Positions 3,660 to 19,901 of a DNA stretch of 24,154 nt are shown in pieces. A program made the position numbers and the translations under genes. Positions within the stretch are counted from its first letter, which is position 1; the number at the start of each line of letters is the position of its first letter. The stretch is from a virus, in IMG/VR virus record IMGVR_UViG_3300030098_000083, positions 1 to 24,154 of that record. The stretch is one strand, 5' to 3'. Below the pieces are notes generated by a model. That model searched no databases. It was not told the DNA's origin and saw only the letters and a program-made list of their open reading frames with translations.

Positions 3660-4019
3660 TTATACCCAGGGTTCTTTAGGTCCATAACCAAAATAACTTC
3701 TAGCATGACCTTCTTCTATTAATTGCTCACATATATTAACACCTTCAACTAATGGTATTCCTAATATTCTGCCAAACTTTCCTTTACCATCTTTTTCTGT
3801 TCTTACAATAAAAGTCTTTGGCAAGAGTTCTTTAAGCCGAGTTTTCGAAGCCAAACCTAACTTCTTTTCTTCCAAGTTTCTTGTTCTGCTTTCAGGCGTG
3901 TTAATGCCATATAATCGCACTCGTTCTTTCTGCAACCACACTTTAAATCCCAAATCAATATCAACATCTATTGTATCACCATCAATAACCCTTCGTAATG
4001 TGCAACGATATTCGTACAT
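3660..4019 (-). CDS. Staphylococcal-nuclease-like (SNc/TNase) protein
   Basis: 119 residues covering most of a thermonuclease OB-fold domain. Motifs in order: RRVIDGDTIDVDI (Asp15 matches the Ca-binding Asp21 of staphylococcal nuclease), RVRLYGINTPESR (Arg35 and Glu43 match the catalytic Arg35 and Glu43), and GKFGRILG (Arg84 matches Arg87). The Ca ligand Asp40 of the staphylococcal enzyme is Asn40 here, a change also seen in other family members. No signal peptide is visible, so it should act in the cytoplasm, perhaps on host DNA or RNA late in infection, or be released at lysis. It shares one base with the preceding o-spanin stop (TAATG). Activity is likely but not certain because of the Asn substitution and short C-terminus. 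Confidence 0.87.
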   Translation of the reverse strand: MYEYRCTLRRVIDGDTIDVDIDLGFKVWLQKERVRLYGINTPESRTRNLEEKKLGLASKTRLKELLPKTFIVRTEKDGKGKFGRILGIPLVEGVNICEQLIEEGHARSYFGYGPKEPWV

Positions 4020-4219
4020 TACTCACATAACCTTTCATATATTTCATTATGGATTAATAAGTCGTCAACAAGTTCGTCAGATATAACGTCTATATCTGCA
4101 TCAGTAGGATTAATCGGACTAGATATTATACAATAGCCTTTATTTCCGCTTCCTATACTTCCGCAACTTGCTACGCTTAGCACTAGCAGTAGTAGCATTA
4201 ATTTTCTTTTTAACTTCAT
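4019..4219 (-). CDS. Rz1-like outer-membrane lipoprotein (putative o-spanin)
   Basis: 66 residues. A basic N-terminus and hydrophobic core end in a lipobox, LSVASC, with Cys19 as the lipid-modified residue, so the mature protein is only about 48 residues. The body contains YCIISSPINPTDAD and ends NEIYERLC, a Cys...PI...D...N...C pattern typical of small lipoproteins beside phage lysis genes. The first 80 nt lie inside the preceding gene in another frame, the classical Rz/Rz1 nested arrangement. Its role would be to pair with the inner-membrane spanin and disrupt the outer membrane after wall degradation. It lacks the proline-rich body of lambda Rz1, so the call rests on the lipobox, size, overlap and neighbours. 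Confidence 0.75.
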   Translation of the reverse strand: MKLKRKLMLLLLVLSVASCGSIGSGNKGYCIISSPINPTDADIDVISDELVDDLLIHNEIYERLCE

Positions 4220-4346
4220 CAGCTACCCTTATATCGTCTAATTGTTCTTTCATTACATCAGCTTGGACTGCTTTCCGCATCATCATAAAGCCAAATAATT
4301 TTGCTCCTAATTTAGCTATACCACCTAATGCAGAAAGCCAACCCAT
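4140..4346 (-). CDS. Putative i-spanin (Rz-like) membrane protein
   Basis: 68 residues. An N-terminal Gly/Ala/Leu-rich segment (GWLSALGGIAKLGAKLFGFM) is a plausible membrane anchor. It is followed by a charged helix (RKAVQADVMKEQLDDIR, then VKKKINATTA) and a very basic tail (KRSKLRKYRKRK). An anchor plus periplasmic helix matches short i-spanins, and the lipoprotein gene begins inside its 3' end (80-nt overlap). It starts on the TAATG junction with the holin candidate. An alternative is a holin-associated membrane protein, since the anchor is only weakly hydrophobic and could be amphipathic. Confidence 0.6.
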   Translation of the reverse strand: MGWLSALGGIAKLGAKLFGFMMMRKAVQADVMKEQLDDIRVADEVKKKINATTASAKRSKLRKYRKRK

Positions 4347-4540
4347 TATTTATCGTCCTTGTTTTTATTTTTTCCAATATTACCAGCAACTAAGTTAAGT
4401 ATGCGTAGTATAAAAGAAATTGCTTTATCGTCTGTTTTTGTAGGTGTTAGAGCTGTAATTGCTGTTGCTGCTGTAACTAATGCTGTAATTGCACTAACCC
4501 AAGCAGGTGCTCCATCTACTAAGTTTAATATTGTGTCCAT
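4346..4540 (-). CDS. Putative holin, single-segment type
   Basis: 64 residues. A hydrophobic Ala/Thr-rich segment ([18 protein letters not shown], about 14-31) is followed by a second moderately hydrophobic helix ([14 protein letters not shown]) and a charged tail (KNKNKDDK). Small size, one or two membrane helices, a hydrophilic C-terminus and a place directly before the spanin pair and endolysin all suit a holin. These permeabilise the inner membrane at a set time and release the endolysin. A strong AGGAGG-like site lies just before ATG 4540, inside the 9-nt gap after the preceding stop. The XhlA-like protein at 5295-5468 is a rival or partner. Confidence 0.6.
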
Positions 4541-4549
4541 ATTATCCTC

Positions 4550-4855
4550 CTATTCCGCACTAAATGTGCCTAGTTGTGACCATAAGCTACCAGGTGCTGT
4601 TGTTCCATTTTGTTTTCCCAACTGCCCCATAGCTTCGTTCACATTTGTAAATGGTCCACTTCCCCATTCAGAAACGTCCCATTGAGCATTATCCCATGCA
4701 CTACCTTGTGCATTGGTATATGCTAACATCTTTTCAGAAAAAGTTCCTGTTGTAAATCCAGAATCGGCAAAAACTTTATCCCAATCTTCATTATAAGTAC
4801 CTGTTGTTTCTGTTGCTTCTCGGCAACTTGCTTGTCGTAATGATTGTTGGCTCAT
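4550..4855 (-). CDS. Small protein, tandem paralogue 2
   Basis: 101 residues, function unknown. It is clearly related to the gene just before it. Both share an R-rich N-terminal helix, then TTG..NEDW, GTF.E..LAY.N, TNVN.A and a C-terminal LGTF block. This copy has an insertion rich in Trp/Asp (GSAWDNAQWDVSEWGSGPF) absent from its partner. A similar Trp spacing occurs in the beta-rich tail protein (EWDTATWDEATWGG). It starts on an ATGA overlap with the first copy. There is no signal peptide or membrane segment. Its place after the fibre genes suggests a small virion or fibre-associated protein, by inference. Confidence 0.75.
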   Translation of the reverse strand: MSQQSLRQASCREATETTGTYNEDWDKVFADSGFTTGTFSEKMLAYTNAQGSAWDNAQWDVSEWGSGPFTNVNEAMGQLGKQNGTTAPGSLWSQLGTFSAE

Positions 4856-5103
4856 GGTGTAAATGTCCCCATACTTGAAAAGTTATAATCATCTTGGTCT
4901 GTTGCAAATGCTTGTAGAGCTAAATTTACATCAGTATATGACGCACTTAACTCACCATTAATATATGCTAATAGTCTTTCGTTAAAAGTTCCTGCTGGTA
5001 TAGAACGAGCAGTAAACAATGCCAACCAATCTTCATTTACCATACCTGTGGTAGAAGTTACTGTTCTTATAGCTATTTGTCTAGCTTCGCTATTAGTTGC
5101 CAT
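4852..5103 (-). CDS. Small protein, tandem paralogue 1
   Basis: 83 residues, function unknown. Visible blocks are SEARQIAIRTVTSTTG, VNEDWLALF, AGTFNERLLAYINGEL, YTDVNLALQAFA and a C-terminal MGTFTP. These line up one by one with the next gene, so the two arose by tandem duplication. This is the shorter, simpler form. No strong ribosome site precedes ATG 5103; the upstream stop is only a few bases away, so translation may be coupled. It is soluble by appearance and is probably late-expressed with the fibre genes. Confidence 0.75.
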   Translation of the reverse strand: MATNSEARQIAIRTVTSTTGMVNEDWLALFTARSIPAGTFNERLLAYINGELSASYTDVNLALQAFATDQDDYNFSSMGTFTP

Positions 5104-5105
5104 TA

Positions 5106-5285
5106 TTACGCTTTCTGGTCATGGTCAGTTCTTCTAACAACATAACCTGTATATTTATTCAAACCACTTGTTATTCTTCTTTTTTCCTCTCGTAGATTTC
5201 TTTTTCCTTTTGAAGTATATGCTCTTTCTGCATCTACTCTACCAAGTTCTTCTAATCTATTTGTTGTACTTGTATTATATTTCAT
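5106..5285 (-). CDS. Small basic protein of unknown function
   Basis: 59 residues. The ribosome site (TAGGAG) overlaps the stop codon of the preceding gene and lies about seven bases before ATG 5285, which supports this start. The protein begins MKYNTSTTNRLEELGRVDAE. It is rich in Arg, Lys and Glu, predicted helical, and ends near VVRRTDHDQKA. There is no membrane segment. I do not recognise a family. Confidence 0.65.
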   Translation of the reverse strand: MKYNTSTTNRLEELGRVDAERAYTSKGKRNLREEKRRITSGLNKYTGYVVRRTDHDQKA

Positions 5286-5470: not shown

Positions 5471-6112
5471 CTATCTTCTATGTTGCTTTACATCTTTATC
5501 GTCTGTCCAACGATTTACTCTTGCTACAACATCTACTGTGCCATCACCTTTATATGTATCATTGTGCAATGCAATAAAAGCATCTAAATCACTAGCACCA
5601 TCAATAGCATCACATATCGCTTTATGGTCGGTTCTTATTGATGCCATATATGTAACCACATCTGAAGGGATTGCAGTATCAGCAGTAACTTTGCGTTGTA
5701 TTAGCCAGTCAAAATCTTTAAGCAATCCATTAGCATCAGATGTTGCTTTTCTTTTAGCTATAGTTTTTAATCCATAGTTAATAACTTTAGAACCATCATC
5801 ATGTAAAAGTTGATTACCATCTTCATCTTTAGCATCTTCGTCATCTAATTTTTTATCGGCTGCTTTTTCTCCAATAGTTCTTACAACACTATTTTTATCA
5901 CCTGCTATAGCAAATGCTTCATCTTTTTCTATGTAATAAGCACTATTAAGAGGTGTGCCACTGGTCGTTACTGGTAATATTCCAATAGCTTTTCTTTCGG
6001 CATCTGTCCAAACACTAAATAATGCTCTAGGGTGTCGAACATCATCTATTACCATTTCTTTTGGACTAGATATTATTTCTTCTATTTTATTACTTTTTAC
6101 TAACGCCCACAT
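5471..6112 (-). CDS. Putative tail-fibre-associated or assembly protein
   Basis: 213 residues. The N-terminal part is mixed alpha/beta (MWALVKSNKIEEIISSPK, later RALFSVWTDAERKAIG), with an acidic Asp/Glu-rich stretch near 85-110. The C-terminal part has a helix pattern common in proteins encoded just after phage fibres: LLKDFDWLIQRK, AIPSDVVTYMASIR and AICDAIDGASDLDAFIAL. This D-W-...-R/K-...-P..V..Y...R motif is typical of fibre-assembly or fibre-tip accessory proteins. The start has AGGAG about seven bases upstream. It follows the receptor-binding fibre by 10 nt, so a chaperone or tip-attachment role is likely but not shown. Confidence 0.7.
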   Translation of the reverse strand: MWALVKSNKIEEIISSPKEMVIDDVRHPRALFSVWTDAERKAIGILPVTTSGTPLNSAYYIEKDEAFAIAGDKNSVVRTIGEKAADKKLDDEDAKDEDGNQLLHDDGSKVINYGLKTIAKRKATSDANGLLKDFDWLIQRKVTADTAIPSDVVTYMASIRTDHKAICDAIDGASDLDAFIALHNDTYKGDGTVDVVARVNRWTDDKDVKQHRR

Positions 6113-8656: not shown

Positions 8657-9715
8657 TTATGCAAATGCAAGTTGTGGTGCTCCTAATTGTATAGAACCAG
8701 ATGCTTTAACAAAATATGGTATAATATCAACAGCACTTGCTGCCGTTGATATAGTTAAACCACTACCCCCTGCTGTTTCATAATCTGTTCCTAAACTTAA
8801 TGTACGACTTCCTGTTCCATCTTGAATAAATACAATTATACCAGATTGACCTGCTGCTTCCGTACTTGGATTTGCTAATGTAACATTACCAGTAGCCGTT
8901 AATATAAAGTTTTGATAAGTAAAATCTAATGTTGTTGAACCAGTAACACTTGCAGTTGATGTGCGACCTTGTTGTGCTGCTGCCCATGTATTAGCTGCAT
9001 TTAACTTACATATTGTACTATCAACACTTATTGTTACAGTATCAGTAGCACTTGCTGCTGTATCTATACCAGTTCCTCCTGCTATATCTACTGTATTACC
9101 ATCACTAATTGTTTGATTAGAACCACTATCACCAGATAATGTCCAAGAGCTCATAGAACCTGCTGAAGTACCTAATTGTGATAACATCTGAAAAGATGTA
9201 CCATCATATATTACAGATACAATAGCATTTTGTTCTATATCACCTGCCGCAATATCTTGATCGTTTTTCTTTTTAATATTCTTAGCACCTAGTCCATTAA
9301 CATTTAATGTTGACGCACCAGACGAAGCATTTGCTGCTTTAAAGTGAAAGACTTGTCCTGCAACATATCCTGTTACTGCTGGTGTTAATGCTATAGCATA
9401 AGTATTTGCACTACCACTATCTGTAGCTTGGAATATTAATCCGCCATCTTGTATCTGACCAGCATTTACACCATCTGTATGTGCTGTACCATCGGCTAAT
9501 GCTGTTATCTTTTGACTACCTAAATCGGCAGCTCCTGTAAAAGCATTTGATCCGTCTTTATTAATACAAGAATTTATGCCTGTTGCTAAATCGTTATCAT
9601 TAGTATCGTGTCTATCCGCAACAATTTTAGTACCTGCATCTCTATCTTGTTGCCAGATTGACGTACCTGTGTGAACACCATTTGTTCTTGTAAATGTACC
9701 ACCTGACCAACCCAT
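8657..9715 (-). CDS. Tail fibre / virion-attachment protein
   Basis: 352 residues. The N-terminus (GWSGGTFTRTNG, WQQDRDAG, RHDTNDNDLATGIN) resembles the tail-attachment region of podovirus fibres. A repetitive Thr/Ser/Gly/Ala-rich body follows (FTGAADLGSQKITALADGTA, STLNVNGLGAKNIKK). This is the spacing of trimeric fibre shafts in which strands are short and polar. The C-terminal part is beta-rich (SGIIVFIQDGTG). It would join the tail tube to the distal 840-residue fibre. AAGGAG lies about seven bases before ATG 9715. The 58-nt gap upstream is among the longest intergenic spaces in the window and holds only this ribosome site and a seven-codon ORF that I do not call. Confidence 0.82.
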   Translation of the reverse strand: MGWSGGTFTRTNGVHTGTSIWQQDRDAGTKIVADRHDTNDNDLATGINSCINKDGSNAFTGAADLGSQKITALADGTAHTDGVNAGQIQDGGLIFQATDSGSANTYAIALTPAVTGYVAGQVFHFKAANASSGASTLNVNGLGAKNIKKKNDQDIAAGDIEQNAIVSVIYDGTSFQMLSQLGTSAGSMSSWTLSGDSGSNQTISDGNTVDIAGGTGIDTAASATDTVTISVDSTICKLNAANTWAAAQQGRTSTASVTGSTTLDFTYQNFILTATGNVTLANPSTEAAGQSGIIVFIQDGTGSRTLSLGTDYETAGGSGLTISTAASAVDIIPYFVKASGSIQLGAPQLAFA

Positions 9716-14880: not shown

Positions 14881-15215
14881 TATACTTCCTTTCGCAATAA
14901 TACTGCTTTTTTGTTATATCCATTTAAAACTTTTTCCCAACCTTTGCGTCCTAAAATATCAATATATTTATAATTACGCTTTTTTGCATATTTTTCAATT
15001 TTTTTCGTAATTTCTTTAATAGTAACTAAATTTCCACCACCTATACCTATACGTAATATTTGTCCATGATGTGCAGTAATAATAGCACTATTATCTTTTG
15101 TAAACAGTTGGTATTCTCCACTTTGTATCATTTGTTCTAATTGTTCTCTCGTTACTTCATGTGTTGATTCTATAGCTGGCTCTAACACTTTCCATATTTT
15201 ATCTGTTATATACAT
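14880..15215 (-). CDS. GNAT-fold-like small virion-module protein
   Basis: 111 residues. The C-terminal half (IEKYAKKRNYKYIDILGRKG, WEKVLNGYNKKAVLLRKEV) looks like the end of a GNAT-type acetyltransferase fold, as in short phage proteins found between tail and internal-protein genes. The middle strand pair (LFTKDNSAIITAHHG, LRIGIGGGNLVTI) also fits. I do not see a clear acetyl-CoA-binding Q/R-x-x-G-x-G/A loop, so it may be a structural or catalytically dead relative. It is connected on both sides by TAATG overlaps. It could modify or assist assembly of neighbouring tail proteins; this is an inference. Confidence 0.6.
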   Translation of the reverse strand: MYITDKIWKVLEPAIESTHEVTREQLEQMIQSGEYQLFTKDNSAIITAHHGQILRIGIGGGNLVTIKEITKKIEKYAKKRNYKYIDILGRKGWEKVLNGYNKKAVLLRKEV

Positions 15216-16741
15216 TATAAACCACGCCCTCTTTCATACATTACATCAGTAGCGTGCCATTTTATAGATTGTGCAGTTGTACTTGTTCTTATTCTTATTG
15301 CTGCGTTCCACCCTATATCTGCAATACTACGCCAAACTTTTTGTGTTTGTATTGTACCACCCCATGTAGCTTCGTCCCATGTTGCTGTGTCCCATTCTGA
15401 ACCAGTAGTTGTTGCAGAACTAGGAGTATACACACTTGTGCCATCATTAAAGTCTACGTCAAAGCCAATACTTACTGGCAAATCAGCATTACTACCCATA
15501 ACAGGTCTTATTGCTGTAAATCTTTTTGGCGAACCTCTGCCACCATAATATATAAATGCTGTTTTTGCATCTCCTTGTATTGCTGAACCTCCATCATTTT
15601 GACCATTATCTGCTTGATGAACTTTAGTATTTCCACCAAAATATAAATCACCATTTAATGTTGCCCAACAATACGCATTTTGTCCTGTAAATCTTGCCCA
15701 TGCACCAGTTGTTAGATTTACCACATATTGTTCAAAATCTCCTACACTTGAAGTTGGTACGTTAAATAACCCATATTGCCCTCTTGGGTATAATACTGCT
15801 TCCCAACCAAATATAGATTTGTAACTATTTACTGCGGTATTTATACTACCACTTATTTTGTCAGATATAGCTACAGCAGGTGCATTTTCACCAGTAACCA
15901 AAGTTTGTGATAAAGGCATAAATCCTTGTTCTGATATTAACACTAAATCTGAATTAACATTAATAAAACATCTTTTTCCAATAGGTCTTGGTAGTTTAAA
16001 TGTACCAACTATTGACCATTTTGCCGCATCAGAAGGATCAGAACCACTATAAATTGCTGCTTCTCCATGATTTGTAATAAATACAATATAATCATCTGGA
16101 CCACTTCCACCATCTCTTGTCCATTGTCCTATAGCTTGTATGTAACCGCCCATGTTAAATATACTACCTAAATTAAAAGTAGCTACTGTTCCTGCAACAC
16201 TATTTATTGGTAAATAACCAAAACTTAATGAATTATTAATACAGAAAAATAATCTTTCTTTAAAAACTGTTACATTATTAATAGTAGTACCTGTAACACC
16301 ACTTAATGTAGGAGTTGCCCAAGCACTACCATTGTAATGTCTTGGTGCATCTGCTCCATTTACTATAAATAAATATCCCCCACCAGAAATAGTAAAATTA
16401 ACATGCTGAAATTGTGCGTTACTTAATGATGTAACAACAGCACTACCTACTGAGCCACTACTTGTAACATCATAAATATTTGAGCCACTAGCTGCAAATA
16501 ATTTATTTGTAGCTCCAGAAGAATAAGGCATTAATGATTGTATAGTGCTAGGCAATCCTGTTACATGGTCTGTATAACCACTTCGTAACGATACATCGGT
16601 GCTGCCAGGAAAAAAATTATCCAAACGAATAGCATCTTGTTCTGGCATCATATCTACTGCATCTCTAGTATTTAAACCGCCAATAGGAGCAGGAACTGTT
16701 GTACTTTCTCCTGTTGGTTGAAATATAGAATCAAAAGCCAT
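15215..16741 (-). CDS. Tail stabilisation protein (P22 gp10-like tail hub)
   Basis: 508 residues, close to the 472 of P22 gp10. The N-terminus has the typical block PAPIGGLNTRDAVDMMPEQD followed by AIRLDNFFPG and LRSGYTDHVTG. Repeating beta blades follow (NKLFAASGSNIYDVTSSG, YLFIVNGADAPRHYNGSAW, ERLFFCINNSLSFGYLPI), consistent with a beta-propeller-rich tail ring. Near the end is a Trp-rich stretch (EWDTATWDEATWGG). It probably extends the tail tube beyond the gp4-like adaptor, which lies two genes earlier. It is held in the TAATG-coupled series. Confidence 0.78.
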   Translation of the reverse strand: MAFDSIFQPTGESTTVPAPIGGLNTRDAVDMMPEQDAIRLDNFFPGSTDVSLRSGYTDHVTGLPSTIQSLMPYSSGATNKLFAASGSNIYDVTSSGSVGSAVVTSLSNAQFQHVNFTISGGGYLFIVNGADAPRHYNGSAWATPTLSGVTGTTINNVTVFKERLFFCINNSLSFGYLPINSVAGTVATFNLGSIFNMGGYIQAIGQWTRDGGSGPDDYIVFITNHGEAAIYSGSDPSDAAKWSIVGTFKLPRPIGKRCFINVNSDLVLISEQGFMPLSQTLVTGENAPAVAISDKISGSINTAVNSYKSIFGWEAVLYPRGQYGLFNVPTSSVGDFEQYVVNLTTGAWARFTGQNAYCWATLNGDLYFGGNTKVHQADNGQNDGGSAIQGDAKTAFIYYGGRGSPKRFTAIRPVMGSNADLPVSIGFDVDFNDGTSVYTPSSATTTGSEWDTATWDEATWGGTIQTQKVWRSIADIGWNAAIRIRTSTTAQSIKWHATDVMYERGRGL

Positions 16742-18947: not shown

Positions 18948-19901
18948 CTATGCTTGTATGATGCCTTGTCTTGCTCTGTTTGAAACAGTCATATTTCCTG
19001 CCCAAACTACTGGCAATACCATTGCATCTTGGTTAACAGATGCCTTTTCCCCTAGTGGAGTAAACTCTCTGCCACTTGCAGGTCTAAGGAATAAATAGTC
19101 CGTATTAAGCATATACATTTTGCTTGCTGGACATTGATCGTCATAATACACAGGTGCGTCCATGAACATTAAATTCATAAACCCAGCACTTGCTTTATCA
19201 TCACTTGTAAACCTTTGGTTTGTTTGTAATGATGCCCAATAATATTGGAAATAAGTGCTGTCTGCTACAATGCAATCTGGTTTATCTGCACCTCTAATTG
19301 TTGCCAACCAAAGTGTGTTCATAGCAGTTTGTATTGTAGTAGCACTAGGTGTAACACTTTCTGTACTAAAATCGTAAACTTGATTTTGCCAGAAAGAATA
19401 AGTTGTTGAGTTAATCCCACCAACTGTGTTTCCTACTGTGCCAGGGACTAGAAGTTGTAACCCTCCTAATTCTTTACCACTTGTGCCTGTTCCGTCTGCA
19501 TATAATGCAGTAGCCATTGTGTTTTTTAATGACTTTTCAAGATTTTTAACTCTTGATTTTAAAAGATTAAACACAGCTTCTTTTCCTGAATTTTCAACTT
19601 GTTCTAATCCAGAAATAACAACATTTCCAGCTAACTGTTTATAATTAAACTCGGCTGCTGTAAATACGTTACTTGTTGATGTGTCTAATACTTCGTAACC
19701 GCTATACCATTTTGTAGTGCTATTTGTTGCATATTCAAGTTCTTGCACAATAGTTCTACCACCAGCGACTACTTTATTGCCTTTCTCCTGTATTGAGCGA
19801 AGTAAAGCATTGTTATTAGTGATGTTATCTGCCATCGTTCTGCTGTAATTAGCGAGAGTGGTAGTAACAATCTCTGTATAAGTGCTATTTGGCGATGCCA
19901 T
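18948..19901 (-). CDS. Major capsid protein (HK97 fold)
   Basis: 317 residues. Characteristic stretches are NNALLRSIQEKGNKVVAGGR, YKQLAGNVVISGLEQVEN, LLKSRVKNLEKSLKNTMATA, DCIVADSTYFQYYWASLQ and APVYYDDQCPASKMYMLNTD. These follow the order N-arm, E-loop, spine helix and A-domain expected for an HK97-type coat protein. It directly follows the scaffold gene, as in P22-like phages. A perfect AGGAGG (19907-19912) five bases before ATG 19901 is the strongest ribosome site in the head module and fits the high demand for coat protein. Confidence 0.88.
   Translation of the reverse strand: MASPNSTYTEIVTTTLANYSRTMADNITNNNALLRSIQEKGNKVVAGGRTIVQELEYATNSTTKWYSGYEVLDTSTSNVFTAAEFNYKQLAGNVVISGLEQVENSGKEAVFNLLKSRVKNLEKSLKNTMATALYADGTGTSGKELGGLQLLVPGTVGNTVGGINSTTYSFWQNQVYDFSTESVTPSATTIQTAMNTLWLATIRGADKPDCIVADSTYFQYYWASLQTNQRFTSDDKASAGFMNLMFMDAPVYYDDQCPASKMYMLNTDYLFLRPASGREFTPLGEKASVNQDAMVLPVVWAGNMTVSNRARQGIIQA

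Follow-up and report, generated by a model that had tools for sequence, protein, structure and literature searches.

Two small adjoining phage genes, designated A and B herein, are true paralogs, and we consider it reasonably likely that they encode free-standing helical docking domains located at the portal and tail region of a short-tailed P22/Mx8-type phage, with a loop in B that would serve for contact with the tail. The genes reside in a virus record of 24,154 bases, and we use the term "window" for this entire stretch of DNA, which carries phage tail and lysis genes on its minus strand (Table 1). The evidence for this reading comes from the relationship between the two genes, from the large proteins of other phages that begin with the same domain, from the places that the domain gene occupies, and from a Trp-Asp element in the loop of B.

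Table 1. Positions of the features discussed in the text, numbered along the window
Feature	Position	Strand	Description and basis
Gene A	4852..5103	-	Four-helix anchor-like domain as a free-standing copy, 83 aa (ORF)
Gene B	4550..4855	-	101 aa, paralog of A bearing the Trp/Asp loop (ORF, homology to A)
A/B four-base overlap	4852..4855	-	End of A and start of B (coordinates)
B insert AWDNAQWDVSEWGSGPF	4649..4699	-	Residues 53-69 (A53-F69), between helices 3 and 4 (alignments)
Core of B insert, W54-W64	4664-4696	-	
WDTATWDEATW motif	15362..15394	-	Residues 450-460 of the tail stabilization (tail tube B) protein
Tail stabilization (tail tube B) protein	15215..16741	-	508 aa (tblastn, PHROG 5107)
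Tail-fiber-like protein	8657..9715	-	PHROG tail matches
Small basic 59-aa gene	5106..5285	-	Directly upstream of A
64-aa gene	4346..4540	-	Follows B as the first of the lysis-side genes; matches PHROG 9685 (unknown function) with E 5e-8
213-aa gene	5471-6112		Close to the A+B pair, next to fiber genes
Spanin PHROG 1275 match	4019-4219		
Major capsid protein	18948-19901		Identity to ppBjS10J-1, Mx8 and Mx9 proteins

The paralogs and their conservation as a pair

In the window, A and B are located between the 213-residue gene and the lysis genes and have no obvious passenger, by which we mean a C-terminal part joined to the domain; this lack counts against the idea that the two proteins are anchors. 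The 213-residue gene gave no PHROG or Pfam match and presumably resembles a tail-fiber assembly protein, and the 64-residue gene after B is one that we take to be holin-like. The major capsid protein encoded in the window shares 49% identity with that of Bradyrhizobium phage ppBjS10J-1 and 42-44% with those of the Myxococcus phages Mx8 and Mx9. Section 3.8 of PMC10386132 describes the Mx8/Pr-like module as no major contributor to oceanic metagenomic lineages, and the Mx8/Mx9-like capsid protein of the window stands in possible contrast to that statement.

The original prediction was that A and B arose by tandem duplication, with shuffled sequences as the yardstick for this claim, and the comparisons bear it out. 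BLASTP aligned A with B at 22/47 identities (E 4e-14 in a single comparison), and their local alignment score of 112 is far above the mean (25.7) and the maximum (57) of 5000 shuffles of B, none of which reached the observed score (z 18). The sequence blocks that had been named as common to the two proteins align in the same order. Likewise, the Trp/Asp-rich insert that had been noticed in the second copy is present as ~17 extra residues between helices 3 and 4 of B, which also carries ~4 extra residues near TAPG, toward its end. The insert is found neither in A, nor in the aligned fused and single relatives, nor in 27 further copies of the domain recovered with a second DNA pattern (see below). 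Because it is absent from A and from all relatives aligned, the simplest reading would be that B gained the insert rather than that the other copies lost it. Both genes appear to be under purifying selection, with a median dN/dS of ~0.13 for A (28 pairs of 8 sequences) and again of ~0.13 for B (25 usable of 28 pairs), at dS values that are high, near 1, for both.

Query scans of IMG/VR gave 56 and 68 loci, and later alignment scans gave the best 80 of 115 and then 59. A collection of 161 loci was assembled from IMG/VR (loci are denoted by L and a number), with some contigs contributing several. Among these 161 loci, an A of 83 residues is followed by a B of 101 residues in 119 and by a B of 102 residues in 23. 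We also counted distinct contexts, each defined as the domain region plus 60 bases on each side, over loci L001-L342. A precedes a Trp-Asp-bearing B in 84 of these contexts, and the others consist of 13 fused forms (12 contigs or records), 10 cases of A alone, 3 cases of B alone, and 1 cut pair. All three B-alone contexts start at contig ends, and no B without A was seen where the contig had room for both genes. Among the A-alone contexts, six are intact (L107, L108, L110, L181, L195 and L221); in L106, L056 and L207 the stretch runs out within the locus, and the match of L223 is confined to the beginning of the domain. Further cases of A without B came up among later loci. Because B is missing in L107, L108 and L110 despite A proteins that are ~70% identical to that of the window, A evidently does not need B; these B-less loci also count against the anchor reading.

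The order A then B is kept across the pairs, and the four-base overlap of the two genes recurs in 59 of 63 distinct junction sequences, suggesting translational coupling. The four deviating junctions comprise two with starts placed 25 bases inside A, one with a 1-base overlap, and one with a 49-base offset in the opposite direction. The genes beside the pair are more varied. Upstream ORFs of 83 distinct pairs form six recurrent groups of 9-14 loci each, between which there are no BLASTP links at 1e-4 and into two of which a single locus may fall. The downstream ORFs form groups of 27, 27, 12 and fewer. Because the ORFs on both sides fall into different groups, the A+B pair is a constant unit among changing neighbors.

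The downstream groups bear on a possible role of A and B in lysis control, such as that of antiholin-like partners, given the holin- and spanin-type genes beside them. The group of the window's 64-residue gene directly follows B in 27 of the 83 distinct pairs, a group of 127-residue genes follows it in another 27, both groups look holin-like by eye, and the spanin match in the window is nearby. Nevertheless, we consider this role highly improbable, since no transmembrane stretch is evident by eye in A or B, the domain is fused to large passengers elsewhere, and its gene has a portal-side place in 11 of 24 other loci, including the A+B pair of L271.

Two further observations concern these neighborhoods. 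In L107, L108, L110 and L167-L170, a gene of ~230 residues upstream of A takes the place of the window's 213-residue gene, and we take it to resemble a 2-oxoglutarate/Fe(II) oxygenase. Contig IMGVR_UViG_3300030116_002682 (62,884 bases) carries two A+B pairs (L004 and L076) that are ~37 kb apart, and perhaps represents an assembly that merged two related phages.

A single duplication and then a single gain of the loop would be the simplest account of this history. In a tree built from ~80 columns without the insert, for which the A copy of L271 was left out and its B copy entered as a single form, A and B form a group that excludes the fused and single forms (84/86), and one branch has A on one side (91/81); both values are below the safe-branch level of the tool. 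A single B clade is compatible with the data (p-AU 0.403, or 0.265 with the L271 copy included). It counts against this account that B falls into two parts in the best tree, where the Trp-Asp copy of L271 pairs on a long branch with single-copy L181 rather than lying within the A+B group.

The domain, its passengers and its gene positions

AlphaFold2 models A with a mean pLDDT of 92.4 as four helices (residues 4-16, 22-32, 40-52 and 59-69). The model of B has the same four helices at low confidence (mean pLDDT 56.7), and residues 52-66 are below a pLDDT of 50, with the insert unstructured in the model. Neither protein matched Pfam, and the A family as a whole gave no match in Pfam, PHROGs or the PDB at useful scores. 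Profile searches of solved structures returned nothing with E under 0.1, and Foldseek on the PDB gave no match under E 2.7, and so none up to E 0.001. A further structure comparison gave two VIA rows with Z of 2.0-2.1, which are designed toroids. The lack of a matching solved structure counts against the anchor reading. One outstanding match did emerge from BFVD, namely A0A6J5M495 (629 residues, TM 0.94, 51% identity), and this protein would fit a fused form of the domain. Several lesser matches were set aside: PHROG 33564 reached only E 0.066 with B, six PHROGs that each match a single protein of the 11-member family alignment (E 0.012-0.32) were treated as chance, and so was an Aeromonas phage portal protein with E 0.2 in the search of isolated phages. 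Among titles and the opening parts of abstracts, with few subscription papers included, we found neither the A domain nor the tail tube B motif described.

A search for single-copy relatives had been proposed as a check, and such relatives exist in both fused and free-standing form. The only isolated-phage record with a homolog of A is that of ppBjS10J-1, in which the domain is the N-terminus of a protein of 527 residues. The same phage is matched by a relative of B, and B itself has no match among isolated phages. Overall, the domain of ~80 residues begins proteins of about 315-1050 residues. The fused proteins first collected range from 329 (cut) to 878 residues in IMG/VR, and one of 685 residues is encoded in a Rhizobium bangladeshense contig. 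Their passengers belong to at least four unrelated groups. For example, the proteins of L162 and L163 are 94.7% identical over their first 75 residues and have no BLASTP match beyond that point at E 1e-3. Some passengers match PHROGs for an esterase (8480; L166, L186 and L209), a hydrolase (16653; L162) or a tail protein (5939; L164 and L165), and the passenger of L163 matches no PHROG. Reading the passengers by eye, we take some to be LamG-like, beta-helix-like or propeller-like.

A second DNA pattern, based on a different block of the domain, picked up 39 stretches, of which 30 were newly found and 27 of those encode the domain. These 27 copies consist of 14 fused, 4 short-tailed and 6 free-standing forms, plus 3 that are cut or degenerate. 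The fused copies among them range from 265 (cut) to 1053 residues; one (L348) shares its contig with L165, and six differ little from each other. In total, the domain is N-terminal in multi-domain proteins in 13 fused contexts (12 contigs or records) and in 14 fused stretches, on the assumption that translation starts at the conserved Met; it counts against this assumption that in L351, L354 and L366 the frame stays open upstream for another 212-257 residues. In L350 and L357, and more loosely in L355, a short repetitive tail like LLLEDGTSFLLLEDG comes after the domain, giving proteins of ~110 residues.

Bacterial genome contigs yielded no homolog in a first scan and two loci in a second. The domain is matched in 2 of 297 genomes of one family and in 1 of 398 genomes of one phylum, with the center genome included each time.

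Proteins of the window served as queries to survey gene position in 24 picked loci (15 of the 27 copies and 9 found earlier). In 21 of them, the same stretch carries one or more core structural genes, at distances from adjacent to several kilobases, and the other 3 show none. The domain gene adjoins the portal gene in 11 of the 24, with ~280 bases between the two in L345, and the A+B pair of L271 is located between the terminase and portal genes. In 3 loci, the domain gene is upstream of the scaffold gene, within 400 bases in two and at ~2 kb in L221. In 7 loci, it is downstream of fiber or S74-type genes; it is adjacent to them in L165 and L194, half a kilobase away in L357, and several kilobases away in the remaining cases. 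The fused genes of L194 and L165 directly follow a homolog of the window's tail-fiber-like protein. Thus, in P22/Mx8-type podophages, the domain family has two locations within a single structural module.

The portal-side place might also suggest that the domain is an internal (ejected) virion component or a neck component near the portal, in which case the fused forms would be virion-borne enzymes rather than receptor-binding tips. A helical domain is compatible with such a role, as are the esterase and hydrolase matches of some passengers. However, the tail-protein passengers and the fiber-side position in other loci fit an external site better, and we therefore regard an internal or neck component as unlikely.

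The Trp-Asp loop and the tail tube B proteins

The original prediction also noted that the Trp spacing of the insert resembles EWDTATWDEATWGG, which corresponds to residues 449-462 of the window's tail stabilization protein, and it proposed that the insert may be a borrowed interaction loop. By tblastn, this protein is related to proteins in 21 phage records, with names including 'phage stabilization protein' and 'tubular tail B protein', and the tail stabilization protein of L271 is 59% identical to it. Searches with the protein or with profiles found no solved homolog. PHROG 5107 matches the window's protein with E 2e-117 and is labeled as an amidase (lysis) in the PHROG library. The amidase label is also attached to the tail stabilization protein in four RefSeq records of related phages, and tail tube B proteins appear to have been mislabeled in this way.

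Positions W450, D451, W455 and W460 are invariant in 7 aligned tail stabilization proteins, with extra residues before the last W in L224, and the WDxAxWDxxxW element is also present in the window's B. The exact element occurred in none of 200,000 shuffles of B, and the relaxed form W[DG]x3W[DG]x3W occurred in 26. A DNA scan with the strict motif gave at least 120 stretches, from which we obtained 115 newly found loci and 116 motif ORFs. Among the matches listed, 91 of the 116 ORFs fit the tail stabilization profile, 4 are B proteins, and 21 are others. With the motif masked, 83 of the 116 listed ORFs still fit, and a profile retrained on 77 of the masked-matching ORFs found 91 of the 116 masked ORFs, a partly circular result. 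These data indicate that the Trp-Asp element belongs mainly to tail tube B proteins. B is not itself one of them: apart from the loop, its 101 residues are homologous to A, and full-length homology to tail tube B proteins was not found, with the comparison to the tail tube B motif profile covering just the motif stretch of B.

In that motif-region profile, the window's B scores above all 10,000 shuffles, and the B of L271 comes next and is likewise above all of them. Chance resemblance between loop and motif can be considered excluded for the window's B on these sequence comparisons. The claim of resemblance thus stands for this B, supported by shuffles and profile, and the loop may have been borrowed by recombination or have arisen independently.

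It is an even question whether the loop is instead an independently evolved Trp-Asp turn, of a kind common in phage structural proteins, rather than a copy from tail tube B. At first pass, the 21 others among the 116 motif ORFs in the matches listed fit neither tail tube B nor B. We looked up 18 ORFs not assigned to tail tube B, namely 16 of these 21 plus L235 and L261, whose match was lost when masked. Ten match virion, head or tail PHROGs (two of these, L229 and L261, also match PHROG 5107 weakly), one matches a terminase, two match families of unknown function only, and five match nothing. In addition, the B proteins of L052 and L167 do not exceed the best of 10,000 shuffles in the profile test, which counts against a tail tube B origin of the loop. 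On the other side, the strict motif, its spacing and the small residues preceding it in the window's B all agree with the tail tube B consensus.

A candidate anchor for parts of the virion

That A and B are in the virion, that they dock at the portal or tail hub, and what the loop does are inferred from sequence and gene order. A and B would each be a small domain of helices for docking, by which parts are fastened to the portal and tail region. In related phages, the domain precedes a large receptor-binding or enzyme-like part that can be exchanged, and it would keep this part attached to the virion; in the window's group, the domain would have been duplicated and kept without a passenger. 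The loop of B, with its tail tube B signature, probably would make a contact in tail assembly. Attachment to the virion had been suggested from the start, as an alternative to a hetero-oligomer of the two proteins. Virion attachment receives indirect support from the N-terminal placement of the domain before unrelated C-termini and from its portal- and fiber-side gene positions, and an A-B hetero-oligomer is possible.

A and B are presumably smaller than the intermediate anchor (3A) of Klebsiella phage KP34. As described in PMC8262889, the KP34 anchor is a stand-alone protein without an enzyme part that attaches a separate receptor-binding protein; A and B, in contrast, form a coupled pair, and the likeness is one of description. 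A conserved N-terminus with an exchanged C-terminus is described for tail fibers and spikes in PMC10386132 and PMC8262889, and the same sources (section 3.2 of the former) present such exchange as a sign of a tail-hub anchor. Because exchanged C-termini mark tail-hub anchors and the KP34 protein offers a precedent for one that stands alone, we hold A and B to be candidate stand-alone anchors.

Comparison with other known systems gives a similar mixture of likeness and difference. The anchors of podophage receptor-binding proteins (tailspikes and fibers) share with the A domain a conserved N-terminus, exchanged C-termini, and a gene in the structural or fiber region. The A domain differs in that it has only ~80 residues, is all-helical in the model, lacks a Pfam, PHROG or PDB match at useful scores, and often stands alone. 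The P22 gp10-like tail stabilization or tail tube B proteins (PHROG 5107) have the WDxAxWDxxxW element in common with B, but they have ~500 residues and no overall homology to A or B that we could find. Phage Phi-GT1 also has a paralogous pair, its dual tail tube A proteins, which belong to a related podophage lineage and, according to PMC10386132, are thought to bear on fiber attachment. These tail tube A proteins are larger than A and B, and the comparison is one of description.

A more elaborate scheme, which we consider rather doubtful, is that an anchor-plus-passenger protein was split into two stand-alone anchors and that the Trp-Asp docking element of the tail tube was grafted onto B. 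B would then occupy or imitate a tail-tube contact, and A and B might form an asymmetric adaptor ring that joins the tail hub to the fibers.

It has also to be asked whether A and B are present in the finished particle at all. They could be assembly helpers, chaperone-like or active in fiber maturation, with the fused forms being self-chaperoned fibers; their small size and the nearby 213-residue gene, with the fiber-assembly resemblance that we presume for it, would agree with this. Intramolecular chaperones of fibers are typically C-terminal, though, whereas this domain is N-terminal to its passenger. Moreover, the ORF beside A changes while A and B stay, and the domain gene is on the portal side in 11 of the 24 loci surveyed. 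For these reasons, we judge it improbable that A and B are assembly helpers, and we prefer docking domains that remain on the virion.

A compact anchor-like domain unmatched in Pfam, PHROGs and the PDB flags unannotated receptor-binding or enzyme-like proteins of podophages. If the domain is indeed an anchor, then the variable parts behind it would point to host-recognition genes that are now annotated as hypothetical. Furthermore, the motif that B has in common with tail tube B proteins is a concrete site to inspect in structures of podophage tails. Proteins marked by the domain include those of prophages of alphaproteobacteria and of many uncultured phages. Another case is L375 (genome G070, of the same family as G001), where a diverged copy of the domain stands alone near a frame that looks terminase-like by eye; this locus is probably a prophage.
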